NCBI GenBank assembly: GCA_002816585.1
Contig: MUCT01000004.1
Span: 1 to 21,995, forward strand
Origin: SAR202 cluster bacterium Io17-Chloro-G6
GTDB taxonomy: Bacteria; Chloroflexota; Dehalococcoidia; UBA3495
Direction: 5' to 3'
Length of the DNA: 21,995 nt
Both the position numbers and the translations under genes were made by a program. The first letter of the stretch is position 1, and every line of letters begins with the position of its first letter. A model generated the notes under the pieces. The model was not told the DNA's origin. It made no database searches and worked only from the letters and a program-made list of their open reading frames with translations. Of the stretch, positions 98 through 20,802 are shown one piece after another.

Positions 98-865
98 ACG
101 CCCAGCGGGGTGGTGGCCATCACGATAGCGCCGTCAAACGGTACGGCTACCCTAAACGCGGATGGGACCGTGAAGTACACTCACGACGGTTCCGAGACCA
201 CGAGCGATAGCTTCAAATATACGATAGAGGACTCGGGTGGCGTCGCGTCGGGCGAAGCTGCCGTGTCCATCACGATCACTCCAGTGAATGACCCGCCGGT
301 GGCAAATGATGACACCGGGTCGGTGGCCGAAGGCGGATCGGTAGACGTGGATGTCCGGTCCAACGACACCGATGTCGAAGACACGACGCCCAGCGGGGTG
401 GTGGCCATCACGCTAGCGCCGTCCAACGGGACGGCCACCCTGAATCCGGATGGGACCGTGAATTACACTCACGACGGTTCCGAGACCATGAGCGATAGCT
501 TCAAATATACGGTAGAGGACTCGGGTGGCGTCGCGTCGGGCGAAGCTGTCGTGTCCATCACGATCGCTCCGGTCAACGACCCGCCGGTGGCGAATGATGA
601 CACCGGGTCGGTGGCCGAAGGCGGATCGGTAGACGTAGATGTCCGATCTAACGACACCGATGTGGAAGACACCACGCCCAGCGGGGTGGTGTTCATCACA
701 ATAGCGCCGTCAAACGGGACGGCTACCCTAAACGCGGATGGGACCGTGAAGTACACCCACGACGGTTCCGGGACCACGAGCGATAGCTTCAAATATACGG
801 TAGAGGACTCGGGTGGCGCCCCGTCGGGCGAAGCTGTCGTGTCCATCACCATCACTCCGGCCGCG
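98..865 (+). repeat. Near-identical 288-bp tandem repeats (about 2.7 units)
   Basis: Units start at about 98, 386 and 674, with a constant 288-bp period. They differ by only scattered substitutions, many of them silent, and the last unit stops after the ITITP segment. This near-identity at DNA level points to recent duplication or gene conversion. Such arrays are prone to copy-number change and to assembly collapse. Confidence 0.9.
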
Positions 866-1216
866 CCGGCCGGCGCCGTCCACGTACATGACCTGGATGC
901 GCTCACCATCAAGGAAAGTAAAGGTGCCTGGAGGGCCATAGTTACCATTGAGTTGATGCAATCGGACGAGTTAACACCCGTTAACGGAGCCACGGTCTTT
1001 GGGACATTTACGCAAAATGGAACCGACATCCCAGTGTCCTGCGTAACCGATTCTGGGACGTGCTTCGTCGATTCAGGCGCATTCCCAAAGAAATCGGGGA
1101 AGGACACCTCTTTCACGGTAACCAGCGTCAGTCATGATACGCTGAATTACGAATCCGGCTTCAACCACGACCCCGACTTGGACAGCAACGGCACGACCAT
1201 TATGTTGAGCAAATAA
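110..1216 (+). CDS. Secreted tandem Ig/cadherin-like repeat protein, 5'-truncated
   Basis: The protein contains about 2.7 copies of a 96-residue unit (288 bp; equivalent GTG-GTG codons at 110, 398 and 686). Each unit carries PPVANDDTGSVAEGG, NDTDVED and DGTVxYTHDGS motifs typical of bacterial Ig-like/cadherin-like repeats (Big_9, 'tandem-95' proteins) of adhesins and S-layer-like surface proteins. The acidic NDTDVED stretch could bind calcium. After the last unit comes a different C-terminal beta domain of about 115 residues (VHVHDLD, PVNGATVFG, CVTDSGTC, NHDPDLDSNGT), a module I recall at the C-termini of other secreted proteins. The frame is open only from position 41, after a TAA at 38-40. 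There is no signal peptide and no convincing RBS, and repeat similarity begins abruptly near 98. The GTG at 110 is only the first available start; the true N-terminus is missing through rearrangement or misassembly. The family call is confident, the start is not. Confidence 0.75.
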   Translation: MVAITIAPSNGTATLNADGTVKYTHDGSETTSDSFKYTIEDSGGVASGEAAVSITITPVNDPPVANDDTGSVAEGGSVDVDVRSNDTDVEDTTPSGVVAITLAPSNGTATLNPDGTVNYTHDGSETMSDSFKYTVEDSGGVASGEAVVSITIAPVNDPPVANDDTGSVAEGGSVDVDVRSNDTDVEDTTPSGVVFITIAPSNGTATLNADGTVKYTHDGSGTTSDSFKYTVEDSGGAPSGEAVVSITITPAAPAGAVHVHDLDALTIKESKGAWRAIVTIELMQSDELTPVNGATVFGTFTQNGTDIPVSCVTDSGTCFVDSGAFPKKSGKDTSFTVTSVSHDTLNYESGFNHDPDLDSNGTTIMLSK

Positions 1217-2539: not shown

Positions 2540-4870
2540 CTAGGCGCCGTTACTCGAGTTTTCCCACAAATTCTCCAATATGGCGCCCGGCGTCATGGGC
2601 AAACTGTTGGTCCGAGTCCCGACCGCATGAGCAATGGCGTTGGCCACCGCCCCCATCGGCGGGACCAATGGCACTTCCCCCACGCCGCGTACCCCGAACG
2701 GATGGCCATTGTTCGCCACCTCCACGATGACCGTGTCAATCATGGGCAGATCGAGGCTCGTGGGCATCCGGTAGTCAAGGAAGCTGGAGTTCAGCATCAA
2801 CCCCTGACCGTCCATGAAATACTCTTCGTTGAGGGCCCAACCGATCCCCTGGACCGCGCCTCCCTGTATCTGGCCCTCGACGTAGCTGGGATGGATGGCT
2901 TTGCCGGCGTCCTGTAGCGCGGTGTAGCGGAGTATCTCTACTTTACCTGTCTCGGGGTCAACTTCTACATCAACGATGTGCAGGCCAAAGGCATTGCCCA
3001 CGCCGCCCGGGTTTGCGGTTCCCCGGCCCACTATCGGGCCGCCGGTGCCATTGAGCCGCCGGGCGATCTGCTTCAGCGTCATCTTGAGTTCCGAATCTTC
3101 TTTGTGGCGAAGCTCACCGTTCGCGTATTCAACGACTTCAGAGCTGACATCCCAGATTCGGGCGGCACGGTCGATCAATTGTTGCCGCACATCCTCGGCG
3201 GCCTGATAAACCGCGGTGCCCATCTTGAATGTAACACCGCTCCCGCCGGCGCCCGAACTGTAGCCGATGGAGTCAGTGTCGGCGATGGAGGGTTTGATAT
3301 CCGTGGCCGGGATGCCCAGAACCTCCGCCACATGTATCGCCATAGCAGCCCGGCTGCCACCGATGTCAGGAGAGCCTTCCACCAGGCTGATGGTGCCGTC
3401 CGGACTAACGCTGGCTGTCGCGCTGGCGGGACCGGTGCCATTGAACCAGGCGCCGGCTGCAATGCCCCGGCCTCGGTTGGGGCCTTCTAGTGGTGTGGAC
3501 AGGTGGGAGTGCTGCTGAGCGGCTTGAAGCACCTCGACCATACCTATGCGCCGGTATGTGGGACCGGCAGCTTGTCTGGTCCCTTCCGCCGCAGCATTTA
3601 TCAGCCGGAACTCGACGGGGTCCATGCCGATCTTCTCGCAAATCTCGTCTATTAATGACTCAGCGGCAAAGGCAGCGGGCGGCGAGCCTGGTGCCCGGTA
3701 GGCGGCGGCCTTCTGGGTGTTGATGACAATATCCAGGCCTTCGATGTAAGCGTTGGGAATGTCGTATGGGCCGAACATTGTGCGGCAACCAGATGGCACG
3801 GGAGAGCCGGGAAACGCTCCGGCCTCGTAGACCAAGCGGGCTTCTGCAGCGGTGATCTTTCCGGCGTTCGTGACTCCCATTTTGACATTGATCTGGGTAC
3901 CCGAAGTGGGACCGGTCCCATGAAAGACCTCAGTGCGGCTCATTGTAATTTTGACCGCCTGTCCGGCCTTGCCAGCGAGGGCTGCTGCCACTGGCTCCAG
4001 ATAACACCCGCCCTGACCCTTTCCGCCGAATCCCCCGCCGATCTCCATGGGTATGACTTTGACCTTGGATACAGGCAGACCCAGAATGGTCGACGTGTGG
4101 TCGCGCAGCGCGAAGTGACCTTGGCTGCTGGCCCAGATCGTAACCGTACCGTCGGCATTCCACTGCGCGGTTGCCGAATGCGGTTCAATGTAACCCTGAT
4201 GGACCGGTTTTGTGTGATACTCCCTCTCAAGGACTAAATCCGCATCCTTGAACCCTTGTTCCACGTCTCCCATTCGGAACTCAAATCGATTGGCGATATT
4301 ACTCTGCTTGCTGTCTTCCACGTCTCCCCAGCCTCCGGACCGCATTTCCGGACTGCTCATGGTAAGGAGCCGCTCGTGGAGAACCGGAGCATCGTGTTTC
4401 ATGGCGTCGGTAGCGTTCAATACCGGAGAGAGAACCTCGTAATCGACGTCAATGAGGGCCAGCGCCTCTTCTGCCACGTGGAGGCTGGTGGCTGCGACCG
4501 CCGCGACTGCGTGCCCCTGGTACAACGCCTTTTCCCGGGCCAAAATATTTCGACTGTAGAAACCGTAATTTACTGCGGCTCCCTCTTCTTGGTCGGCCAC
4601 CTCAGCAGAGACTTCTGGCAGGTCGGCGGCGGTGACGACAGCTCTCACTCCGGGCAGCGCCAACGCCCTGCTGGGGTCGATACTTCGGATACGAGCATGG
4701 GCGTGCTGGCTCCGCAAAATCTTGCCGTGCAGCATACCCGGCAGGTGGATATCGGCGGCGTAACGGGCACGGCCCATTACTTTGTCGGGTCCGTCATGCC
4801 GAACCGGGCGAGTTCCGACCACCGCAAAATCCTCGGTTGATAAGACTATGTTGGGCTCGTAGTCGGGCAT
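2540..4870 (-). CDS. Xanthine dehydrogenase/CO dehydrogenase-family molybdopterin-binding subunit (copy 1)
   Basis: This 776-residue large subunit belongs to the molybdenum hydroxylases (XdhA/CoxL-like), which hydroxylate N-heterocycles, aldehydes or related carbons with water as oxygen donor. An N-terminal a/b hammerhead domain (about residues 25-145) is followed by two MoCo-binding domains. Active-site landmarks are visible: SSQG (Q250), GGGFGGKGQGG from 278, YRAPG at 391-395, and the catalytic glutamate in RGVGE (E732). YRAPG is not the AYRCSFR loop of form I CO dehydrogenase, so a CO role is unlikely. The start is firm, with GAGGAGAG just upstream of the ATG. No FAD subunit, [2Fe-2S] subunit or maturation gene lies nearby, so partners must be encoded elsewhere. 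A paralog of similar length lies at 12013-14316. The substrate is unknown. Confidence 0.93.
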   Translation of the reverse strand: MPDYEPNIVLSTEDFAVVGTRPVRHDGPDKVMGRARYAADIHLPGMLHGKILRSQHAHARIRSIDPSRALALPGVRAVVTAADLPEVSAEVADQEEGAAVNYGFYSRNILAREKALYQGHAVAAVAATSLHVAEEALALIDVDYEVLSPVLNATDAMKHDAPVLHERLLTMSSPEMRSGGWGDVEDSKQSNIANRFEFRMGDVEQGFKDADLVLEREYHTKPVHQGYIEPHSATAQWNADGTVTIWASSQGHFALRDHTSTILGLPVSKVKVIPMEIGGGFGGKGQGGCYLEPVAAALAGKAGQAVKITMSRTEVFHGTGPTSGTQINVKMGVTNAGKITAAEARLVYEAGAFPGSPVPSGCRTMFGPYDIPNAYIEGLDIVINTQKAAAYRAPGSPPAAFAAESLIDEICEKIGMDPVEFRLINAAAEGTRQAAGPTYRRIGMVEVLQAAQQHSHLSTPLEGPNRGRGIAAGAWFNGTGPASATASVSPDGTISLVEGSPDIGGSRAAMAIHVAEVLGIPATDIKPSIADTDSIGYSSGAGGSGVTFKMGTAVYQAAEDVRQQLIDRAARIWDVSSEVVEYANGELRHKEDSELKMTLKQIARRLNGTGGPIVGRGTANPGGVGNAFGLHIVDVEVDPETGKVEILRYTALQDAGKAIHPSYVEGQIQGGAVQGIGWALNEEYFMDGQGLMLNSSFLDYRMPTSLDLPMIDTVIVEVANNGHPFGVRGVGEVPLVPPMGAVANAIAHAVGTRTNSLPMTPGAILENLWENSSNGA

Positions 4871-6259: not shown

Positions 6260-6286
6260 GGAACTTTCTCCACCCCCTTCCCGTCT
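6260..6286 (+). promoter_or_regulatory. Candidate ECF-sigma promoter upstream of the stand-alone DUF4349 gene
   Basis: GGAACTT at 6260-6266 resembles the common ECF -35 element (GGAAC). CGTCT at 6282-6286, 17 nt after GGAAC, matches the common ECF -10 core (CGTC). The start site would lie near 6292, about 65 nt before the ATG. The motif is short and could be chance. Its interest is that an ECF sigma gene with a DUF4349 partner lies at 11163-11717. Confidence 0.4.
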
Positions 6287-6357: not shown

Positions 6358-7656
6358 ATGAGTTACTCAGAAACTTCAGCCAACTCACCACGCCGAACTT
6401 GGTTGAGATTGGGACAAAGGATGTCCTTAAACAAGGCTTTTTCGCTGGGAATCGCCACGCTGCTGATTGTGTCAGCCGCAGTGGTTCTGACTTGGATGTT
6501 GGCGTCTGGCCCGTGGTCGGGCAGCGGCGATTCGTTGGCGACGTCTGAAGCAACAGGTTCTGAAGGAGGATTTGACGGTGAGTTATTCCCGCCTGGGCTA
6601 ACCGCTCCTGAGGGCTTCGGGGCCGACAGCGCTCTGGGTCTGACGTTCACCGACGAGGACTTGAAAAGCGGACAGGAATTCGGACAGTCTGAGGAGCCGG
6701 CCAACGCCGTTGCCGCTTCCGCCGCTCCCATAATGGCGATTTCTTCTGATCAACGCCAGATCATTTCACAGGGATCCATGTCAATTGAGGTTCCCGATGT
6801 TTCAATCGCGGCCGCCCGAGTCCGGGCCATAGCCGAGGGCGTCGGTGGGTTTGTTGAACAACTTTCCAGCAACGGGATAAGGGAACTCCAGCAATCCACC
6901 ATGACGGTGCGAGTTCCTCAGGCCGAATTCTTCTCGGTGTTCGAGCAGATCAAAGCTCTGGGCGAAGTGCAGAACGAGAACGCCGGCACCGAGGACGTAA
7001 CCGAACGGTTCATCGACCTTGAAGCACGGCTGAAGAGCGTCCAACGCGAGGAACTGAGTTTGCTCTCGCTCTTGGACCGGGCTCAGCAGATCAGCGAGAT
7101 TCTGATCATCGAACGGGAGCTGACCCGGATCCGTTCCGAACTGGAGCGGCTGCAAGGCCAACTGAATTTCCTGGAGCGACGGGTGGATATGTCTGCCATC
7201 ACGGTCTTCCTAGCCCCGCCGCAAAAGGATGATGGACAATCGCCTTCCGGTTCTTTCACCATCGAGTCGTCAGACGTCGGTGGCAGCGTCGACACCATAA
7301 AAGCAGTGGTCGGTCAGGTTGATGGCGAGGTCGACCGGGTGTTCACTGCCACGCAGGACGGACGACAGCGGGCGTTGATGACGGTCCGAGTCTTTGACAA
7401 GGACTTCGGTCTTCTGGTTGCCGCCGTGGAAGACCAGGGTGGTCTGGTGTTCAAAGAGGTCCGGGAAGGCAAAGCCGGGGACGCCGATTCCGAGGAACCC
7501 AGCGCCCGCCTGGACATCACATTCCAGGAGAAGGAATCCTCAACCCTGGGCCGCAATCTGGCAATCTTCGCTCCCTTGGGCAGCCTGGGGCTGATCGCAG
7601 TGCTGGGCGTTCTGTTCTACGGGGCTTACCGGATGGGGGCCCGCCGCGAAGACTAA
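6358..7656 (+). CDS. DUF4349 domain membrane protein (stand-alone paralog)
   Basis: This 432-residue envelope protein has a short N-terminus, a first membrane helix (about 28-49), an acidic low-complexity linker (50-130), a DUF4349 core (about 132-288), and a C-terminal helix (about 400-422) followed by basic YGAYRMGARRED. The DUF4349 core is an alpha/beta module (GGFVEQLSS, TMTVRVPQAEFF, ENAGTEDVTERFIDLEARL) leading into a coiled coil (about 215-278). A second, weaker copy of the alpha/beta module follows (about 305-372: VGQVDGEVDRVF, ALMTVRVFDKDF, DQGGLVFKEVRE). Both helices suggest the bulk lies outside the cytoplasm. AAGGAG about 8 nt before the ATG supports the start. It lacks the cytoplasmic anti-sigma-like N-terminus of its paralog at 9632-11170. 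The molecular function of DUF4349 is unknown to me. Confidence 0.88.
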   Translation: MSYSETSANSPRRTWLRLGQRMSLNKAFSLGIATLLIVSAAVVLTWMLASGPWSGSGDSLATSEATGSEGGFDGELFPPGLTAPEGFGADSALGLTFTDEDLKSGQEFGQSEEPANAVAASAAPIMAISSDQRQIISQGSMSIEVPDVSIAAARVRAIAEGVGGFVEQLSSNGIRELQQSTMTVRVPQAEFFSVFEQIKALGEVQNENAGTEDVTERFIDLEARLKSVQREELSLLSLLDRAQQISEILIIERELTRIRSELERLQGQLNFLERRVDMSAITVFLAPPQKDDGQSPSGSFTIESSDVGGSVDTIKAVVGQVDGEVDRVFTATQDGRQRALMTVRVFDKDFGLLVAAVEDQGGLVFKEVREGKAGDADSEEPSARLDITFQEKESSTLGRNLAIFAPLGSLGLIAVLGVLFYGAYRMGARRED

Positions 7657-8526: not shown

Positions 8527-9489
8527 ATGGCGAATGATGATACCGCTTTCGGCTACCTGCTGCCCACCCGCGAGGTGGTCATGGCCCCTGGTGCCCCCGA
8601 CTTTGCGTCCATGATCAACCTGGCGGAACGGGCCGAAGGCCATGGGTTCGACTCGGTCTGGTGCGGAGACAGCGTGCTGGCCCGTCCCCGACTGGAGGCT
8701 CTCAGCACCCTTTCGGCCATCGCCGGGCGCACCAAACAGGTGAAGCTGGGCACGGCGGTGTTCCTGCCCGCCCTTCGCAACCCGGTGATATTAGCCAACG
8801 AGGTTGCCAACTTGGACATCGTTTCTCAAGGCCGGGTCATACTTGGCGTGGGGATCGCCAGCAAGATGCCGGCGGTGGAGAAGGAATTCGAAGCCTGCGG
8901 GGTGTCGTTCCGGCGCCGGGTCAGCATCTTCGAAGAGTGCGTGACCGTCATGCGAAAGCTCTGGACCGAGCCGGAGGTCACTTTCAATGGCCGGCACTTC
9001 CAACTGGATGGAATCAGTCTGGGATTGCGGCCGGTACAGAAAAGCGGCATCCCCATCTGGATGGCCGCCAGCGCCGAGAAGCCCCAGCGAAGGATGCTTC
9101 GCATCGGCGACGGCTGGTTCCCCAACTCCACCTCACCGGAAGTATTCTCGGAAGGTTGGCGGCAGATAGAGGCTCTGGCGAAGGATACTGGGGACAACGC
9201 CGGTAAGCTGCACCGGGCCCTGTATACCACCTTGAACATCAATGAAAACAAGGCCCAGGCTGAAAAGGAGATGCGGGAGTTCATAGAAGGCTACTACAAC
9301 ACGCCTTTCGAAACGATGGCCCGCACCCAGAGTGTTTTCACCGGCAAAATCCAAGAGGCCATCGGCTGGCTAAAGGGCTTCATCGACGCGGGCGCCCAGA
9401 CCATCGTGATCCGCTTCGGCGGCCACGACCAGCCGGGTCAGTTAGAACTCTGCGCGAAAGAGGTGCTGCCCCAACTCCGGGCTGCCTGA
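8527..9489 (+). CDS. LLM class flavin/F420-dependent oxidoreductase
   Basis: This 320-residue protein has the length and pattern of a luciferase-like monooxygenase-fold (TIM barrel) oxidoreductase that uses F420 or FMN. Visible marks are AERAEGHGFDSVWCGDS (about 33-49), VKLGTAVFLPALRNPVILA (about 72-90, the typical GT...P.RhP strand), NLDIVSQGRVILGVGI (about 94-109), VMRKLWTEPEVTFNGRHFQL and PIWMAASAEKPQRRMLRIGDGWFPN (about 175-200). Members act on F420-linked alcohols and amides, or on aromatic and sulfonate substrates; nothing here decides which. AGAGAGG precedes the ATG. It stands alone with its own promoter region and a conspicuous leader hairpin. With the Ddn-like gene at 1496, it suggests the host makes F420. 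Confidence 0.92.
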   Translation: MANDDTAFGYLLPTREVVMAPGAPDFASMINLAERAEGHGFDSVWCGDSVLARPRLEALSTLSAIAGRTKQVKLGTAVFLPALRNPVILANEVANLDIVSQGRVILGVGIASKMPAVEKEFEACGVSFRRRVSIFEECVTVMRKLWTEPEVTFNGRHFQLDGISLGLRPVQKSGIPIWMAASAEKPQRRMLRIGDGWFPNSTSPEVFSEGWRQIEALAKDTGDNAGKLHRALYTTLNINENKAQAEKEMREFIEGYYNTPFETMARTQSVFTGKIQEAIGWLKGFIDAGAQTIVIRFGGHDQPGQLELCAKEVLPQLRAA

Positions 9490-9631: not shown

Positions 9632-11170
9632 CTAATTCAATTCCCCGCGGCGATGGCCAATCTGATACGTCACGAAGAACAGGAACCCTAGGACCACCAC
9701 GGAAGCAGCGACGCCTATGACGATCCATAGCCCGGTGTCAGACGATTCCTTCTCAACGAACTCAACGGCGATCCGGGAATCCGGCTCTTCGGGAGCGCCC
9801 GTCTCGGTATCGATCGTACCAATCTCTTCTTGGATTTCTTTACGGGTGACCTCGCCCAGAGACTGTATGGCGGAGACCACTCTGTTGAAGTCTTGCGCGA
9901 ATACCCTAACGGTCAGACTGGCCCTCTCGGTCCCGTCTCGCGCTGTGGTGAATACTTGGTCCAACTCGCCGCCGGCCGCGGAAACCAGGGCCTTCGTTTC
10001 TTCTACACGCCGCGGGACGTTGGATGCCTCGATTAACAATGAAGCAGTAGGCGGTTGGCTTTCCCTGAAATCAGGCGGGAATAGGGCGACTATGATGGTG
10101 GCCAAGTTGACCCTCCGCTCCAGGAAGTTGATCTGTCCTTGCACCTGCTCCAGTTCGGTCCTAATGCGGGAGAGTTCCCGCTCGATGGTTAGAATCTCGC
10201 TCACTTGATTAGCGCGTTCCAGCAGTGACAAGAGACTCAATTCCCCTCGCTCCGCGCTCTTGAGCCGGGCCTCCAGGTCGATGAACCGCTCCGTCACGTC
10301 TTCGGAGCCCGCGTTTTCATTCATCACTTTCCCCAGCAACTTTATTCGGTCGAAAACGTTGAAAAACTCCGGCTGAGGGACACGGATGGTCATCGTAGAT
10401 TGCTGGCGTTCTTCCACACCCTGGCTGGAGAGTTGCTCAACGAAACCGCCCGCGCCTTCGGCGATCAACCGCACTTGGACGGTCGCGGAAGGCACGTCCT
10501 CCACGTCCAACGAAACCGACCCCTGGGAAATGACCTGCCTTTGAGCCGTCTCCAATTGCCCACTGGAGCCCATGCCGCCCGCCGGAAGCGGTGGCTGGGA
10601 TGGCGTCGAATAGGAGAACCCTTTTTCGGTATCGAGTACAACCCATCCCCCTCTTAGGTCGATGGCTGTGGACCCGAGAGCGCCGGCGGCACCTGCTGGA
10701 CCCGCTGCGCCTGCTGGACCCGCCGCACCTGCGGCACCGAGCCCACCAGTTGGCACAGACGTAGCAGCGGGAGCAGTGGTTGGAGCTGGCGTTGGCGTCG
10801 TCCGAGACCGACGGGGAACTGGCGTTGGCGTTGGGTAAGTTGCTGGTCCTCGGGACTCAGAAGCTGGTATTAAAACAGTCCCTGGAAGCCCTCCATCGCC
10901 CTGCCAAGGGGTGGCGGTGAACAGCCAGGCGCCGGAGACCGCTAGAACTAGCACAACCATGGCGGCAAGGGCCGGCGACAATCCCCACCGGCCGGGCCGC
11001 ACCACGCGCCGCCAGACCGGCGACACAATGCCGCTCCCGATATCCGCTCGCAACCGTGCCTCTATTCTTCCCCATAAACCGGCTGGGGCCTTTAGTCCTT
11101 CGGCTTCCGACTCAAAGTGGGTTTGAAGAAGCCGTTCCATTTCCTGATCGGGATTATCGTTACTACTCAT
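9632..11170 (-). CDS. Putative transmembrane anti-sigma factor with extracytoplasmic DUF4349 domain
   Basis: The 512-residue product begins with an anti-sigma-like cytoplasmic segment (about 8-45: MERLLQTHFESEAEGLKAPAGLWGRIEARL). No HxxxCxxC zinc motif is present. It continues with a membrane helix (about 64-84), a Pro/Thr-rich stalk (about 102-140), a collagen-like Gly-rich stretch (about 143-167), the DUF4349 core with coiled coil (210-366), a second alpha/beta module (about 385-450), and a C-terminal helix (about 481-503). I chose the ATG at 11170 because it overlaps the end of the ECF sigma gene by 8 bp, implying translational coupling; a GTG at 11209 would extend it by 13 residues. Position after the sigma gene and the topology suggest that it holds the sigma factor at the membrane and releases it on an envelope signal. 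That role is inferred. Confidence 0.82.
   Translation of the reverse strand: MSSNDNPDQEMERLLQTHFESEAEGLKAPAGLWGRIEARLRADIGSGIVSPVWRRVVRPGRWGLSPALAAMVVLVLAVSGAWLFTATPWQGDGGLPGTVLIPASESRGPATYPTPTPVPRRSRTTPTPAPTTAPAATSVPTGGLGAAGAAGPAGAAGPAGAAGALGSTAIDLRGGWVVLDTEKGFSYSTPSQPPLPAGGMGSSGQLETAQRQVISQGSVSLDVEDVPSATVQVRLIAEGAGGFVEQLSSQGVEERQQSTMTIRVPQPEFFNVFDRIKLLGKVMNENAGSEDVTERFIDLEARLKSAERGELSLLSLLERANQVSEILTIERELSRIRTELEQVQGQINFLERRVNLATIIVALFPPDFRESQPPTASLLIEASNVPRRVEETKALVSAAGGELDQVFTTARDGTERASLTVRVFAQDFNRVVSAIQSLGEVTRKEIQEEIGTIDTETGAPEEPDSRIAVEFVEKESSDTGLWIVIGVAASVVVLGFLFFVTYQIGHRRGELN
10680..10742 (-). repeat. Collagen-like Gly-X-Y coding repeat (18-bp period)
   Basis: On the minus strand this encodes GAAGAAGPAGAAGPAGAAGALG, in which the six-residue GPAGAA block recurs in tandem. 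It forms the outer end of the stalk between the membrane helix and the DUF4349 core. Such repeats vary in length by slippage. Confidence 0.75.
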
Positions 11171-11717
11171 CGCTGTCACTATTTCCGGGTCCCAATTCTT
11201 GTAACTCACTACGTAATTGCTGAAGCGCCCGGTGCAGTCTGGACTTGACCGTTCCTTCCCGCCTTCCCAACGCTTGGGCCACCTGAGGCACGGTCAGCCC
11301 GGCAAAGAACCGGAGCGTGACCACAATGTTGTGCTCGTCCGAGAGGGCCGAGATCGCCTGCCGTACCCGCTGCCGAGATTCACTGGACTCCGCCAATTCC
11401 GCAGGATCACCGGCGCCGGACTGGGTCTCGGCCACTTTGATGGGGTCGATGGGCAATGACCGGCGTCTCCGCTGGGCCGTAACCGTATTAACGAGAATGC
11501 GCACCAGCCATGGTTTGACCGGGTAACCGGTGCGAAAGCCATTTATGCCCCGCCATGCCGAGAGGAACGCCTCCTGTACGTGGTCCTCGGATAGGGCGGC
11601 GTTCCCAGTCATCAAGTAGGCCGTGCCGTAAAGAACGTCTTGATAACTTTCCACCAGATGGCGAAACGCCTCCTGGCTGCCGCTCTGACAAAGCAGAACG
11701 GCTTCTTCATCGTTCAT
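11163..11717 (-). CDS. ECF-family RNA polymerase sigma factor
   Basis: This 184-residue protein has the standard ECF layout. Region 2 (about 8-80) includes the core-binding and -10 segments LVESYQDVLYGTAYLMTGN, DHVQEAFLSAWRGINGF and PVKPWLVRILVNTVTAQRRRR. A linker follows, then region 4 (about 112-168) with LRFFAGLTVPQVAQALGRREGTVKSRLHRALQQLRSEL, a clear helix-turn-helix for the -35 element. ECF factors are usually released from a cognate anti-sigma factor; the next gene overlaps by 8 bp and encodes a membrane protein with an anti-sigma-like tail. The upstream sequence holds a GGAACGTTTTT element on the minus strand at 11780-11790, possibly an ECF -35 for self-activation, but its -10 partner is poor. 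Target genes are unknown. Confidence 0.93.
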   Translation of the reverse strand: MNDEEAVLLCQSGSQEAFRHLVESYQDVLYGTAYLMTGNAALSEDHVQEAFLSAWRGINGFRTGYPVKPWLVRILVNTVTAQRRRRSLPIDPIKVAETQSGAGDPAELAESSESRQRVRQAISALSDEHNIVVTLRFFAGLTVPQVAQALGRREGTVKSRLHRALQQLRSELQELGPGNSDSDE

Positions 11718-11849
11718 AGACCGCCCCCAATTTCCGTTTCTTCGAAGAAGGGTTCACTGGATAATATGCGACTCGCGCCAAAAACGTTCCATATCTTCGT
11801 GGTTCAAATAGGGAATAAGCCGCGGGGCAACTGTTGAACAAGGGTGCTG

Positions 11850-12012: not shown

Positions 12013-14316
12013 ATGACCACAGCCACCAGCGGCCAGCAGTCCGAGGAAACCAAACAATACGACGTTATCGGCACCCGGCCCATTCGCCACGACGGTGTGG
12101 ACAAAGTCATTGGGGCCGCCAAGTATGGGGCCGACACTCAACTGCCGGGCTTGCTACACGGCAAGGTGCTGCGCAGTCCCCACGCCCACGCCCGGATCCG
12201 GTCGATTAACACCAGCAAGGCCGAAGCGCTGGCCGGCGTCACGGCTGTTGTTACATCGAAGGACTTCCCGATCATCTCCGACGTGATCATCGACCTGGCC
12301 GAGACTCAGGGCAACGCCCGCCTCCTGGCCGAGCACGTCATGGCAGCTGCCAAGGCTCTCTACAAAGGACATGCCGTGGCGGCTGTTTCAGCGACCAGCC
12401 CTCACATCGCGGAGCAGGCCTTGGAACTGATCGAGGTCGATTATGAGGTTCTGAAGCCGGTTCTCTCCTTGGATGAAGCCATGAAAGACGATGCCCCGCT
12501 GCTCCATGAGAACCTTACCACTTACTTCAAGCTGGAGCGCTTCGCCAGGGGCGACGACAGCGGGAAGAAGAGCAACATTGCCTCCCACATTCAGCACAAG
12601 TTGGGGGACGTGGAAAAGGGGTTTCAAGAGGCTGATGTGATTGTCGAGCGGGAGTTTACCACCCAAACGGTCCACCAGGGTTATATCGAACCCCACGCGT
12701 CCACCGCCACCTGGGCGGGCGACGGACGCCTCACCATCTGGACCTGCACCCAGGGTTCCTTCGCCATCCGTTCATCATGCTCCGCCATCCTAGATATCCC
12801 AGAGTCCCAGATCAGGGTCATCCCCACGGAGATTGGTGGCGGATTTGGGGCCAAGATAACCACCTATCTGGAGCCAGTAGCCGCGGTCCTGTCCAAGAAG
12901 AGCGGCCGTCCGGTGAAGATCGTAATGTCGCGCAAGGAGGTTTTCGAGGGAACCGGCCCGACGTCAGCATCAAAGATGCGCACCAAGATCGGCGTCACCA
13001 AGGACGGGAAGATTACCGCCGCCCAATTGTGGTTGGCCTTCGAGGCCGGGGCCTATCCCGGTTCTCCCATCGGCGGCGCAACCCTGTGCGCCACCGGGCC
13101 CTACAACATAGAAAACCTCCTCGTCGACGGCTACGACGTGGTCTGCAACAAGCAGAAGGTCCAGGCCTACCGGGCCCCGGGACAACCCCAAGGTGCATTC
13201 TCCGTGGAGCCCGTGATCGACGAGCTTGCCGAAAAACTGGGGATGGATCCGTTGGAGTTCCGGCTAAAGAACGCCGCCGTTGAAGGCGACCGGATGCCCA
13301 ATGGCGTGCCCCATCCGCACTTCGGGGTCAAGGAAATGGAAGAGGCCATGAAGGCCCATCCCCATTATCAGACTCCGCTCACGGGCCCCAACCAAGGCCG
13401 GGGCGTGGCGGTGGGTTACCGCTGGCAGGGAGGACAGGCGTCGTCGGCCACAATTACAGTCAACAACAACGGCACCATCAACCTGATTACCGGCTCAGTG
13501 GACATCGGCGGTTCCCGGACCGCGGTAGCCATGCAGGCCGCCGAGATGCTGGGACTTCAGGCCGAAGACGTGTCGCCCACGGTGGTGGATACCGACACCA
13601 TCGGCTGGACCGGGGTAACCGGCGGCAGCCGTACCGCCTTTGACACAGGGTTGGCGGCCATCCAAGCAGCCGAAGAGATCACCAGGTTAATGAAGGTTAG
13701 GGCCGCCATCCTTTGGGAGGTAGAGGAAGAGGACGTCACCTTTGACCAAGGAAACTTCATCTGCGGAAAAACTGAAGACACCATCAGCTTCAAGGACCTA
13801 TCGGCCCGGTTGATGCGGACCGGCGGCCCGGTCACCTGCTCGGTATCCCCGGCCTCGCCGGGAAGCGGACCCATCATCGCGGGCAATCTGGTGGACGTCG
13901 AAGTTGATCCCGAAACCGGTAAAGTCGACATCCTCCGTTTCACCGCTTTCATGGATGTGGGCACCGCGGTACACCCCTCCTACGTGGAAGGGCAGATCCA
14001 AGGCGGCACGGTCCAAGGGATCGGCTGGGCCCTAAACGAGAGCTACGTCTACGACGAGAATGGCGCCATGCTGAACTCTAGTTTCCTGGACTACCGCATG
14101 CCAACGTCGCTCGACGTGCCGATGATTGACACTGTGATGATCGAGGTCCCCAACCCGAAGCATCCCTTCGGATTGCGGGGAGTCGGCGAAGCTCCCATCA
14201 TCCCTCCGCTGCCGGCCCTGGCCAACGCCGTCACCAACGCCATCGGCGTCCGGATGACCGACCTGCCCTTGACGCCGGACGTTATACTATCGGCCATCGA
14301 ATCGAAGGGCCAATAA
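12013..14316 (+). CDS. Xanthine dehydrogenase/CO dehydrogenase-family molybdopterin-binding subunit (copy 2)
   Basis: This 767-residue molybdenum hydroxylase large subunit parallels copy 1 along its whole length and appears roughly half identical by eye. Shared landmarks are VIGTRPIRHDGVDKVIGAAKY at the N-terminus (hammerhead domain to about 145), HQGYIEPH (221-228), CTQG (Q247), GGGFGAK from 275, a YRAPG loop and the catalytic glutamate in RGVGE (E726). GGGAG at 12001-12005 fixes the ATG. It has its own strong promoter and a strong terminator, so it is a single-gene transcript. As for copy 1, no FAD or [2Fe-2S] subunit gene is adjacent. Differences around the substrate pocket (for example GGGFGGKGQGG in copy 1 against GGGFGAKITTY here) suggest different substrates. 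Neither substrate can be named from sequence. Confidence 0.93.
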   Translation: MTTATSGQQSEETKQYDVIGTRPIRHDGVDKVIGAAKYGADTQLPGLLHGKVLRSPHAHARIRSINTSKAEALAGVTAVVTSKDFPIISDVIIDLAETQGNARLLAEHVMAAAKALYKGHAVAAVSATSPHIAEQALELIEVDYEVLKPVLSLDEAMKDDAPLLHENLTTYFKLERFARGDDSGKKSNIASHIQHKLGDVEKGFQEADVIVEREFTTQTVHQGYIEPHASTATWAGDGRLTIWTCTQGSFAIRSSCSAILDIPESQIRVIPTEIGGGFGAKITTYLEPVAAVLSKKSGRPVKIVMSRKEVFEGTGPTSASKMRTKIGVTKDGKITAAQLWLAFEAGAYPGSPIGGATLCATGPYNIENLLVDGYDVVCNKQKVQAYRAPGQPQGAFSVEPVIDELAEKLGMDPLEFRLKNAAVEGDRMPNGVPHPHFGVKEMEEAMKAHPHYQTPLTGPNQGRGVAVGYRWQGGQASSATITVNNNGTINLITGSVDIGGSRTAVAMQAAEMLGLQAEDVSPTVVDTDTIGWTGVTGGSRTAFDTGLAAIQAAEEITRLMKVRAAILWEVEEEDVTFDQGNFICGKTEDTISFKDLSARLMRTGGPVTCSVSPASPGSGPIIAGNLVDVEVDPETGKVDILRFTAFMDVGTAVHPSYVEGQIQGGTVQGIGWALNESYVYDENGAMLNSSFLDYRMPTSLDVPMIDTVMIEVPNPKHPFGLRGVGEAPIIPPLPALANAVTNAIGVRMTDLPLTPDVILSAIESKGQ

Positions 14317-14490: not shown

Positions 14491-15771
14491 ATGGCCGCTG
14501 TCCAACACAACCAGCCTTGGGCGGACCGGGTCAGAGGCTTGCTGCAACTTAAGGATTTCCGGCTAATGTTGGCCGCCGGGGGCCTGGACAACACCGGGCG
14601 CTGGATGGACACCGTTGTCATGGGTCTGCTGGTACTGGACCTCACCGACTCGGCGTTCCAGGTTGCCCTGCTCTTCGTCTTCCGCTGGATACCCATGCTG
14701 TCATTTGCCCTGTTGTCGGGCATGATCGCCGACCGGGCCAACCGCTGGATTGTCATGATGGTGTCCCGCACCATGGCCGCCGCCGCTACCACTGTCATCC
14801 TGGTATTGGTGTTAACTGACGCCTTGGAGCCGTGGCACTTATTTATCGCCTCCTTCTTCCTGGGATTGCTCTTCGTGTTGGAGTTTCCTTCGCGGCGCTC
14901 ACTAATTTATGACCTTGTGGGTAGCGGCCGCATCGTCGGCGCCATGTCACTGGAGACCATCAATTCAACGCTGGGCAGGTTCATCGGTCCATTCATGGCG
15001 GGAATCTTGATTGAATTGACCGGCTTCTCCGTAACCTACGTGATCTTGATGGCAGTCTATCTAGCCGCCTTTATTCTGATCTGGCGGGTCAAGACCAGGG
15101 GTCCGGCCCGGGCCGCAACTTCTTATCCGTTCTGGCGCACCATTTCCCGGGGTTTCAAATATTCGGTGAACAACGGCGTGATACGAAGTGTCATGATCAT
15201 CACCTTGATCATGAACGCCATGGCATTCAGCGTGGAGTCTCTGTTCCCGGTGGTCGCCCGCGACCAACTTGGCGTGGGTGCGGGGTTGACCGGAATATTG
15301 ATCTCGGCCCAGGCCATCGGATCATTGGCGGCGGCTTCCGTGATCGCGACCATTGCGGTAGTGCGTTACCACGGCCGCATCTTTTGTCTTGGTCTGACCC
15401 TGCAATTGGTCAGCCTGCTGATCTTCGCCCTGTCCCCCTGGTATCCGCTGTCTTTCTTGATGCTGCTGCTCTCTGGGCTGGGCGCGGCGGGCTATGGCAC
15501 CATGCAGAGCACCATCATTCTAATATCGGCCGACCCGGAGATGCGCGGAACGGCCCTGGGGATGCTGGGACAATGCATCGGCGTGGCTGCCGTCGGCGGT
15601 CTGGCTGTGGGCGCAGTGGCCAACATCTTCAGCGCCCAGGCGGCCGTGGCCATGAGCGTGTCTCTGGGCCTGGTTTTACTGATACCGGCGGTGGTCTTCT
15701 CGCCCCTGATCCGGGGACCCATCGCCCCGCCAGATGAATCTTCAGAGGCAGCCCAACCAGAGCCCGCTTAG
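14491..15771 (+). CDS. MFS transporter (MFS_3 / EntS-like exporter)
   Basis: This 426-residue polytopic membrane protein has a pattern of about 12 hydrophobic helices in two halves, of the drug/siderophore-exporter type (DHA3, MFS_3). The N-terminus has LLQLKDFRLMLAAGGLDNTGRWMDTVVMGLLVLDLT, followed by the loop 2-3 motif SGMIADRANRW (about 76-86). FLGLLFVLEFPSRRSLIYDLV matches the family's F..PSR..L..DLV pattern in helix 4-5. The second half includes SVESLFPVVARDQLGVGAGLTGILISAQAIGSLAAA. No convincing Shine-Dalgarno precedes the ATG at 14491, so the start is less certain. A TTGACT lies at 14452-14457 but has no -10 at the right distance. The cargo is unknown. The stop codon overlaps that of the convergent CoA-transferase gene by 4 bp. 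Confidence 0.9.
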   Translation: MAAVQHNQPWADRVRGLLQLKDFRLMLAAGGLDNTGRWMDTVVMGLLVLDLTDSAFQVALLFVFRWIPMLSFALLSGMIADRANRWIVMMVSRTMAAAATTVILVLVLTDALEPWHLFIASFFLGLLFVLEFPSRRSLIYDLVGSGRIVGAMSLETINSTLGRFIGPFMAGILIELTGFSVTYVILMAVYLAAFILIWRVKTRGPARAATSYPFWRTISRGFKYSVNNGVIRSVMIITLIMNAMAFSVESLFPVVARDQLGVGAGLTGILISAQAIGSLAAASVIATIAVVRYHGRIFCLGLTLQLVSLLIFALSPWYPLSFLMLLLSGLGAAGYGTMQSTIILISADPEMRGTALGMLGQCIGVAAVGGLAVGAVANIFSAQAAVAMSVSLGLVLLIPAVVFSPLIRGPIAPPDESSEAAQPEPA

Positions 15772-17009
15772 AGTGCTCCCGCCGATTCTAGTTCAGACAC
15801 TTCCTCGATGGTCAAACCGCCCAAAGCGCAGAGTATTTCTGCGTTGTGCTCACCCAGACGAGGAGCAGTCTCATGGGGAGAATCGACACAAGCGGTGAGC
15901 CGGGCCGGGGTTTTCACTCCGCGGAACGTGCCGCCCAGGGTGTCGCCGGTGTCAACGAACATCTGACGGGCTTCTAGTTGCGGGCACTCGGCAAGGTCGG
16001 CCATGGTTTGGGTGACTCCCATGGAAAAACCGATCTCGGTCAGCGTCGCCGCCACTTGGAATTTGGGTAATTGGGACGACCATTCTTCGATCGCTGGGAT
16101 GATTTTTTCGAAGTAGAACTGGCCGTCCATACCCGGTGCTGCCAGGTAGCGTGCGTCGCCCTCCAATAAATCTTCCCGGCCGACTACTCTCCACAGTTCT
16201 CGCATCCGCGCCTCTGACCGCACGCCAGCCAAAACCACGTAGCCGTCTTTGGCTTTGAAGGTGATACCGGCGGTGGCCAACCGGTCACGGGAGCGGCCTG
16301 GGTTGGCGCCGGTGGCCTGAAAAGAGTTCATGTTGCTCTCAATATGCGAAACCATGCACTCGTACATGGCCATATCCACATACTGGCCCCGCCCAGTCTT
16401 GCGCCTGGTCTCAAGGGCCAGAACCACACCCAAAGCGGTCCATACTCCGGGAATGGAGTCGCCTATGTTGTCGCCCACGCTCTGGGGCGGGCCGTCCGGC
16501 TCGCCGGTGATCTCCATCCACCCGGACATGGCCTGGATGGCCAGGTTGTTGGCGGGCCGGTCTGAATAGGGGCCGTTCAAGCCCTCGCTATCTCCGTAGC
16601 CGGTGATGCTGGCGTAGACCAGGCCGGGATTTAACTCGCTCAGATGGTCATAACCCAGCCCCAGCCGGCGGAAGGCCCCTGAGCCCCAGTTGTCCACCAG
16701 TACGTCGGAATTCCGGACCAGCTCCTCGAAGGCTACTTTGCATCTCGGATTACGAAGGTCTATTGAAACGCTCTTTTTGTTGCGGTTCACGCCAAGGAAC
16801 CGGGAACTCACCTCCCGCCCATCCTCGGCCTTAATGAACGGCGCGCGGCCGCGGGCCAAGTCTCCTGTGCGGGGACGTTCGATCTTGATCACGTCTGCTC
16901 CCATGTCGGCCAGGATCATGGAACAAAAGGGCCCGGCCACAATATGGGTGGCGTCCAATACTCTGATACCCTCCAGGGGCAGGGGCAGCTTTTCGCTGGC
17001 TGGAGTCAT
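15768..17009 (-). CDS. CaiB/BaiF family (class III) CoA-transferase
   Basis: This 413-residue protein belongs to the class III CoA-transferases, which form interlocked dimers and move CoA between carboxylic acids through an aspartyl-CoA intermediate. It opens with LPLEGIRVLDATHIVAGPFCSMILADMGADVIKIERP (about 10-46), continues with NRNKKSVSIDLR (75-86) and the GDS motif whose D184 aligns with the catalytic aspartate of formyl-CoA transferase, then ALETRRKTGRGQYVDMAMYE (about 198-217). Length is normal. GAGGTG about 8 nt before the ATG supports the start. A TAAAAT box and a large leader hairpin lie upstream. It would activate an organic acid for breakdown; donor and acceptor are unknown. Bile-acid, carnitine, oxalate and dicarboxylate CoA-transferases are all in this family. 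Confidence 0.93.
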   Translation of the reverse strand: MTPASEKLPLPLEGIRVLDATHIVAGPFCSMILADMGADVIKIERPRTGDLARGRAPFIKAEDGREVSSRFLGVNRNKKSVSIDLRNPRCKVAFEELVRNSDVLVDNWGSGAFRRLGLGYDHLSELNPGLVYASITGYGDSEGLNGPYSDRPANNLAIQAMSGWMEITGEPDGPPQSVGDNIGDSIPGVWTALGVVLALETRRKTGRGQYVDMAMYECMVSHIESNMNSFQATGANPGRSRDRLATAGITFKAKDGYVVLAGVRSEARMRELWRVVGREDLLEGDARYLAAPGMDGQFYFEKIIPAIEEWSSQLPKFQVAATLTEIGFSMGVTQTMADLAECPQLEARQMFVDTGDTLGGTFRGVKTPARLTACVDSPHETAPRLGEHNAEILCALGGLTIEEVSELESAGAL

Positions 17010-19845: not shown

Positions 19846-20802
19846 ATGCTGTCTAACAGTGTTTTCCACCGCTTGAAGGCGCTGGCCGCCTGCTCAAGCA
19901 TAGTGCTGGTTGCGTTGTTCGTTCTAGGGGCCGGACCACGCCAAGGCGGCGTGCCCCCACAGCCCTACGGCGCCAATTTCTTCTCCGGGGTGGTTACAGT
20001 GCAGGGCCAGTCCCCGCCGGCCGGCACCCTGATCATTGGATGCGTTGCCGATTGCGTCGAGATTTTTCAAAGCGAACCGGTCCAAACCGATGCGGACGGA
20101 AATTACGTTGCCCTTCAATTGAACCCGGATGACGAAGAATTGGTGGGCCGGATCATCACCTTCTATCTGACTAATGAATTTGGCCGGATCGCCGCCAGTG
20201 AGACCCGACGGTTTGAAGGCGACTTCAACATCTACGACTTGGACCTGACATTCACAGATCCTATCCCGGTGTTCGCGCCTCGTCCCGCTCCGACCACCGT
20301 GCCTGTTATTCCCACGGCTCTGAGCCTGGCGCCAGAGAGAGGATTGGCGACTGCGATTACCGGGGCGGGGTTCACTCCCGACTCAGTGGTGACTTTGACT
20401 TCTCAGGGGACGACTTTGGGGACTGTGCTCACCGACGGTACCGGGGCTTTTCGGCTGGTGGTCGCCGCGCCATCGTCGGTCGCCGGGGAATACGAGATCA
20501 AGTCCACGGACGAAGAGGGGACAACTAGAAGCGTAACTCTGGCGGTGCCAGACTTGACTGGGCCGGATGGAATCGACGGAGCCCCGGGGGCCACGGGATT
20601 GGAGGGTCCGGGTGGTGTTGATGGCGCTGATGGAAATCAAGGATTAGCGGGACCAACAGGGGACGATGCTTCCGTAGTGCTGCCTGTGGTGGCGCTTTCG
20701 CTAGCCGGCCTGGCAATCCTGATCATCATCGTGATCTATCTATACCTGATCAGTTGGTATAGGGACCTGGCCCGCCGCCTCCCTCCTCCGGGAATAAGAT
20801 AA
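19846..20802 (+). CDS. Exported, membrane-anchored protein with collagen-like stalk
   Basis: The 318-residue product starts with a signal peptide or anchor (KALAACSSIVLVALFVLGAG, about 11-30). Next comes an Ig/carboxypeptidase-regulatory-like beta domain (about 45-136, with C66 and C70), a Pro-rich linker, and an IPT/Ig-like domain (about 155-233: ALSLAPERGLATAITGAGFTPDSVVTLT). Then follow 12 uninterrupted Gly-X-Y triplets (239-274), a membrane helix (about 277-302), and a short basic tail (WYRDLARRLPPPGIR). This puts the beta domains outside, lifted on a collagen-like rod. GAGG about 8 nt before the ATG supports the start. The beta domains look like ligand- or surface-binding modules, but no enzyme motif is visible. 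It has no co-directional neighbour within 800 bp, so it is probably monocistronic. Confidence 0.8.
   Translation: MLSNSVFHRLKALAACSSIVLVALFVLGAGPRQGGVPPQPYGANFFSGVVTVQGQSPPAGTLIIGCVADCVEIFQSEPVQTDADGNYVALQLNPDDEELVGRIITFYLTNEFGRIAASETRRFEGDFNIYDLDLTFTDPIPVFAPRPAPTTVPVIPTALSLAPERGLATAITGAGFTPDSVVTLTSQGTTLGTVLTDGTGAFRLVVAAPSSVAGEYEIKSTDEEGTTRSVTLAVPDLTGPDGIDGAPGATGLEGPGGVDGADGNQGLAGPTGDDASVVLPVVALSLAGLAILIIIVIYLYLISWYRDLARRLPPPGIR

Follow-up and report, generated by a model that had tools for sequence, protein, structure and literature searches.

A candidate ECF sigma factor and membrane anti-sigma factor pair with an outer DUF4349 domain in a SAR202 cluster bacterium

Introduction

Membrane proteins that are co-encoded with an ECF sigma factor are usually its inhibitors, and the pairing of an ECF gene with the gene of a membrane anti-sigma factor is well known.

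In the class II system CnrH-CnrY, a short, zinc-less two-helix part of CnrY binds the ECF factor; according to the accessible text of PMC7406223, the two helices wrap the sigma factor so that the first lies on its domain 4 and the second on its domain 2, and class I anti-sigma domains contact the same two faces. The membrane anti-sigma factor RsiV of the SigV-RsiV system (ECF30) has an outer region that guards a cleavage site near the transmembrane (TM) segment, as described in the available part of PMC6066255. For DUF4349, the accessible portion of PMC10924467 reports on a protein that has both a lipobox and a tail at its C-terminus, which by analogy would fit an outer location of the domain.

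Here we describe a gene pair in the window, by which we mean the whole stretch of 21,995 nucleotides that was analysed, from SAR202 cluster bacterium Io17-Chloro-G6. The partner of its ECF factor carries a short cytoplasmic tail that, like the corresponding part of CnrY, is zinc-less and has two helices, whereas its outer domain differs and a profile search of PDB sequences detected no sequence similarity between the tail and CnrY. In the predicted model the tail consists of two helices without a bundle and is shorter than about 50 residues, which is how class II is defined. With SigV-RsiV the pair shares the membrane anti-sigma arrangement, and the present tail also occurs on DUF4179-type proteins behind ECF genes; however, the outer domain here is DUF4349. 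Class I factors (RseA, RskA, RsiW) have the same operon position and the role that we infer here, but the tail is too short for their three-helix bundle plus helix 4, and it lacks an HxxxCxxC motif.

Two further comparisons concern DUF4349 itself. Tail-less DUF4349 lipoproteins and membrane proteins have the same outer DUF4349 core and C-terminal TM helix, but they lack both the anti-sigma tail and a directly preceding sigma gene, and nearly half of those in the group studied here have an ECF-type promoter. On a plasmid of Tsukamurella tyrosinosolvens (L155), an ECF gene overlaps a DUF4349 gene whose product likewise has a zinc-less N-terminal part before the TM segment. This locus, the only one of nine DUF4349 plasmid records with a sigma gene within 3 kb, belongs to another phylum, however, and has no GGAA[CT] in the 200 bp upstream of the sigma gene. 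Since our tail model does not recognise its N-terminal part, the coupling may have more than one origin.

Results

The gene pair and the anatomy of the partner

The pair and the parts of the partner protein are as follows.

11163..11717, minus strand: ECF sigma factor gene, 184 aa (P0002), with Pfam r2 and r4_2 matches
9632..11170, minus strand: gene of the 512-aa protein P0001, a candidate membrane anti-sigma factor that carries DUF4349, based on the 8-bp overlap, Pfam and the model
11036..11152, minus strand: cytoplasmic tail, residues 7-45, predicted sigma-binding module (alignment A1, model, surveys)
10916..10975, minus strand: first TM helix, residues 66-85 (model helix, hydrophobic sequence)
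10547..10915, minus strand: disordered Pro/Thr and collagen-like stalk, residues 86-208 (pLDDT < 50)
10079..10540, minus strand: DUF4349 core, residues 211-364, a ferredoxin-like half and a helical hairpin (Pfam, model)
9830..10048, minus strand: second ferredoxin-like module, residues 375-447 (second Pfam stretch, model, BLAST)
9638..9736, minus strand: C-terminal TM helix, residues 479-511, with a basic end (model helix, hydrophobic sequence)

P0002 consists of regions 2 and 4 and little else, as an ECF factor does by definition: both PF04542 (Sigma70_r2, 1.2e-14) and PF08281 (r4_2, 4e-13) score above cut-off, and its top relative among PDB sequences is M. tuberculosis SigL. The partner gene adjoins this ECF gene and encodes a TM helix and an N-terminal part that is cytoplasmic in the topology predicted from the sequence, the attributes by which an anti-sigma gene is recognised. 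As start of P0001 we take the ATG whose MSSN residues recur in relatives, though a longer version from a GTG at 11209 is possible. The genome scan returned a single relative, L001 (Chloroflexi bacterium isolate B15T1B11), with the same gene pair and a sigma factor that is 84% identical.

A preliminary description of this DNA had reported the 8-bp overlap of the two genes, which we confirm and which is identical in L001, and had proposed for the partner the order of tail, TM helix, stalk, DUF4349, second module and C-terminal helix, which both Pfam and an AlphaFold2 model of P0001 (built from a 72-row alignment) uphold. The collagen-like run that it saw in the stalk exists, although the Pfam Collagen match is weak (E 0.023, under the cut-off). 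It had also seen no zinc-type anti-sigma motif, and rightly so: P0001 is free of cysteine and thus has no HxxxCxxC, and the motif is absent from the first 80 residues of all 94 tailed homologues found among 121 proteins, i.e., P0001 and 120 relatives among the matches listed, some of the other 27 being N-terminal fragments.

In the model, the tail forms two helices (7-25 and 32-45), and alignment A1 shows conservation of E12, A28-P29 and W33. The basic residues that flank both TM helices suggest, from sequence, that both ends of the chain lie inside. DUF4349 (PF14257) is recognised at residues 211-364 with an E-value of 4.5e-50 (170.4 bits against a gathering threshold of 27.7), along with a second Pfam stretch, and is modelled as a beta-alpha-beta-beta-alpha-beta unit (213-291) followed by a long helical hairpin (293-355). 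The second module (375-447) is another beta-alpha-beta-beta-alpha-beta unit in the model and, as judged from its sequence, repeats the first half of DUF4349 in diverged form (a BLAST of just these two sequences gives 23% identity, E 6e-7). The homologue of P0001 in L001 has one additional copy of this repeat.

Fold relatives of DUF4349 were sought with its model, and none was found at E <= 1e-3; below that level there are partial matches to ferredoxin-like folds, such as NikR (3.2 A over 70 columns), and to generic helical hairpins. A PDB sequence search with the DUF4349 alignment returned one irrelevant chain alone.

Elsewhere, the window encodes two molybdopterin-binding large subunits of the xanthine/aldehyde dehydrogenase type (2540-4870, minus strand; 12013-14316, plus strand), a luciferase-like monooxygenase (8527-9489), a CoA-transferase (15768-17009), a cadherin/Ig-like repeat protein (110-1216, plus strand) and a protein that weakly matches Big_6 and collagen-like sequence (19846-20802, plus strand).

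The tail occurs with changing outer domains

When the tail alone was searched in 400 genomes of the phylum, 61 matches in 43 genomes were obtained at E <= 0.01. Thirty-six of these were strong (E <= 1e-4), and 34 were examined (G303:C12 and G391:C30 were left out); two of the 34 are rows of A1 and two lie at contig ends, which leaves 30 testable matches. All 30, many of which are close relatives, are linked to a sigma factor, 27 by an ECF gene directly upstream and three by fusion in one ORF. The 11 examined among the 25 weaker matches comprise three with a separate sigma gene, five fusions and three without sigma.

The outer domains of these proteins vary. A VWA-type domain was recognised in 21 of the 21 scanned proteins of that type (by vWF_A, and also by VWA except in L196), and L182, which was not scanned, belongs to the same type by resemblance. 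Other tailed proteins have DUF4179 above cut-off (L185, and L214 from the weaker matches) or just below it (L187), a weak DUF5643 match (L186), a DUF3558 match below cut-off (L188) or no domain match (L189). The loci with an ECF gene followed by a tailed VWA-type protein are L168-L184, L195-L203, L212 and L213; many of their stalks are rich in VEKVV/KEVPVE, and many genomes of this group have two or three tail matches each.

In a tree of 44 chosen sigma sequences, a 22-row set (support 97/88) joins the window's sigma factor to VWA-linked ones. The DUF4349 label must have changed at least twice across well-supported branches, so outer domains have been exchanged.

Compared with Pfam and NCBIfam, the tail gave weak, scattered matches alone (best E 0.01 and 0.03), and its profile found one irrelevant chain and no anti-sigma chain up to E 10 among PDB sequences. 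A protein search with residues 1-60 returned five close DUF4349 proteins among 24 candidates.

Tail and sigma gene go together among DUF4349 genes

DUF4349 was sought in 294 genomes of the class to which L001 belongs, 140 of which were positive. Sampling among the matches listed covered 30 loci and 115 further regions, with contig-end fragments (G003, G048, G058) excluded, and gave a final set of 149 DUF4349 ORFs, window included, after six duplicate loci had been dropped. Among the matches listed, seven ORFs combine the tail with an ECF gene that directly precedes them in the same direction, none has the tail only, none the sigma gene only, and 131 have neither; 11 more also have neither, but have less than 600 bp of upstream DNA. 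Because the tail model had been built partly from sigma-linked rows, it was rerun without the five rows from survey loci, whereupon six of the seven were recovered at E <= 5.5e-6 and the seventh at 0.046, with zero additional genes among 3,987 ORFs.

The coupling of the window's DUF4349 protein to its ECF factor, as claimed in the preliminary description, is thus well supported by the class survey and the tail-only search. The broader expectation that DUF4349 genes of related genomes are associated with sigma factors holds for the tailed forms (7/7), but not for tail-less ones with enough upstream DNA (0/131 among the matches listed).

Sigma genes also occur near tail-less DUF4349 genes in other orientations. 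In the class survey, a sigma gene lies adjacent on the opposite strand at eight loci, a sigma gene lies downstream on the same strand at four (L063, L064, L066, L067), and at L047 a sigma gene lies 1.3 kb upstream. A recurrent arrangement is a tail-less DUF4349 gene that faces an adjacent ECF gene with an HxxxCxxC anti-sigma factor (L049, L058, L092, L103, L109, L112, L114, L146). At L224, L225, L227, L237, L241 and L246, a co-directional sigma gene follows a tail-less DUF4349 gene at about 0.1-0.7 kb.

A conserved promoter-like site upstream of the sigma gene

11761..11790, minus strand: predicted autoregulatory ECF promoter, GGAACGTTT-N12-GCATATTAT, whose GGAAC starts 73 nt before the sigma ATG

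The site upstream of the window's sigma gene reads GGAACGTTTTTGGCGCGAGTCGCATATTAT. As the search pattern was derived from the window and related sites, an exact match there proves nothing, and it is the position that was put to the test. In 41 of 45 linked or fused sigma genes, GGAAC is found 65-95 nt ahead of the model-adjusted start. The non-redundant figure is 29/33, compared with 1.1 on average and at most 6 in 1,000 shuffles and with 0 on the reverse strand. GGAAC is missing upstream of the four remaining genes of the 45 (L188, L189, L192, L214), and none of eight zinc-type ECF genes on the opposite strand has it at that position. The column consensus of the linked sigma promoters is GGAACGATT-N12-GCGTA. 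That GGAAC is conserved in place suggests autoregulation, as far as sequence can tell.

A regulon search in the genome G001 with two promoter patterns yielded one exact site each, namely the sigma promoter. Sites with two mismatches numbered 3 and 6, barely above the 1 and 2 for the reversed patterns, so no wider regulon was found in that genome.

Tail-less DUF4349 genes often have an ECF-type promoter

6358..7656, plus strand: second DUF4349 gene, 432 aa, with a short N-terminus and a signal anchor, tail-less (PF14257 1.6e-52)
6260..6285, plus strand: predicted ECF promoter of this tail-less gene, GGAAC-N17-CGTC (GGAACTTTCTCCACCCCCTTCCCGTC), 98 nt before the ATG

The window contains this second DUF4349 gene 2 kb from the sigma pair, and G001 likewise has a tail-less DUF4349 paralogue (L057) with a similar ECF-type site. 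The pattern GGAAC-N15..18-CGT[ACT], sought from 250 bp upstream of the ORF to 90 nt into it, was chosen after the window's site had been seen and was then fixed for new loci. It is present at 64 of 137 tail-less DUF4349 genes, compared with 21 of 825 other ORFs; shuffling gave 1.7 on average (8 at most), and the reverse strand gave two. Against non-overlapping control ORFs the figures are 64/137 and 16/556, and in the subset with free upstream DNA 49/107 and 11/345. Although the pattern permits four spacers, 60 of the 64 sites have a spacer of 17, and 47 of the sites have CGTC as their ending. In the phylum search (26 new DUF4349 loci, 24 testable), the fixed pattern was found at 14 of 24 loci versus 1 of 61 controls; in DUF4349 genes of other phyla, it was found at 0 of 8.

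With 64 of 137 tail-less genes preceded by an ECF-type promoter, DUF4349 looks like a common ECF target, and in the pair described here it looks to have been recruited as the outer domain of an anti-sigma factor. As the -10 part is unlike that of the tailed pair, a different ECF factor may serve the tail-less genes.

Natural fusions of sigma factor and tail

At eight loci (L204-L211), sigma factor and tail are encoded in a single frame, and the GGAAC site is present upstream of all eight. Five of the eight stop right after the hydrophobic segment; the fusion of L204 continues into a VWA domain, and L207 and L211 are, by eye, without a hydrophobic segment. A search with one fusion yielded 34 proteins, 25 of them a fusion family (P0123-P0147, with P0146 apparently frame-shifted) and nine separate sigma factors. 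The family is conserved, and the tail is present in all 24 aligned members. Sigma region 2 (PF04542) is recognised in only two of the 25 (P0140, P0147), so most look degenerate. The fusions (L204-L211, P0123-P0147) may be decoys, tethered sigma factors or decaying genes.

The model of the fusion P0147 is confident in the first tail helix (block pLDDT 89 and 76) but not in the second (52-53), with a pTM of 0.42. In a fold search with this model, ECF factors match the sigma part, and those from anti-sigma complexes do so at about 10 A, so that no domain arrangement can be read from the model.

Discussion

We consider it probable that the pair is a self-controlled ECF sigma factor with its membrane anti-sigma factor, in which the tail holds the sigma factor, DUF4349 senses, and release leads to transcription of the pair's own operon. 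The zinc-less two-helix tail would keep the sigma factor close to the membrane on its inner side. As the tail has just two helices, a CnrY-like binding mode would be expected by analogy, in which helix 1 probably meets domain 4 of the sigma factor and helix 2, which carries the conserved AP..LW, meets domain 2. The preliminary description had suggested that the way of binding sigma may be new; the tail indeed lacks a convincing match in Pfam, NCBIfam and PDB sequences, but a zinc-less pair of helices is what CnrY has as well. The DUF4349 modules, predicted to lie outside between the two TM helices on a disordered stalk, would sense the state of the envelope, and the stalk may, as proposed in the preliminary description, set their distance from the membrane. 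A signal would then remove or open the anti-sigma factor, for which regulated proteolysis would be the simplest route, and the freed sigma factor would transcribe its own operon from the GGAACGTTT-N12-GCATA promoter. Peptidase M50, found in 4/4 genomes, is equally present in the controls (14/14) and is therefore uninformative.

The DUF4349 protein could instead be transcribed along with the sigma factor as one of its targets, and its tail could bind something else. The ECF-type promoters at 64 of 137 tail-less DUF4349 genes and at 14 of 24 new loci do mean that the presence of a DUF4349 gene in an ECF operon does not by itself make its product a regulator. However, among the matches listed in the class survey solely tailed forms lie directly behind sigma genes, the tail stands behind sigma genes even where the outer domain is a very different one, and in some genomes sigma factor and tail are one protein, which makes this reading very unlikely. 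Even less likely, in our view, is a tail that anchors the sigma factor in the membrane or assists it, without inhibition. The five of eight fused loci that end right after the TM helix could indeed encode membrane-tethered sigma factors, but with PF04542 found in two of 25 fusion proteins most of these look degenerate, and the membrane protein encoded alongside an ECF factor normally inhibits it.

A further alternative touches the origin of the tail and leaves its role as it is, namely that the tail is a shortened class I domain that has lost its zinc site. About 44% of class I domains have no zinc motif, according to the accessible text of PMC7406223, and two of 18 tail rows have a weak NCBIfam match to RsrA (best E 0.031). 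On the other hand, the tail has about 40 residues compared with a class I mean of 101 (same source, same portion), the model predicts just two helices ahead of the linker, and the PDB sequence search returned no anti-sigma chain. We therefore regard a class I origin as rather unlikely.

Under the preferred reading of a self-controlled sigma/anti-sigma pair, one may speculate further that DUF4349 proteins are, in this phylum, a dedicated output of envelope-stress ECF factors, and that the tailed anti-sigma factor senses them and uses its DUF4349 modules to co-assemble with an ECF-induced tail-less paralogue, such as the one at 6358-7656, as a means of self-shutoff. We hold this extension to be improbable; if it were true, the switch would register how much of its own type of product there is on the outside, or in what state.

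What seems to be new is the tail family, whose outer domains change and which includes fusions, as well as the link between DUF4349 and ECF factors. In the open-access main texts searched, we found neither a DUF4349-sigma link nor an ECF anti-sigma factor with a von Willebrand factor domain in Chloroflexi. A published re-classification of ECF factors may already list DUF4349 partners.

DUF4349, found in 279 of the 400 sampled genomes of the phylum yet rarely named in the literature searched, thereby gains a testable role. The promoter patterns allow regulon searches, and the tail is an unnamed, portable anti-sigma module, by our reading, that connects related sigma factors to several outer domains and occurs in natural fusions.
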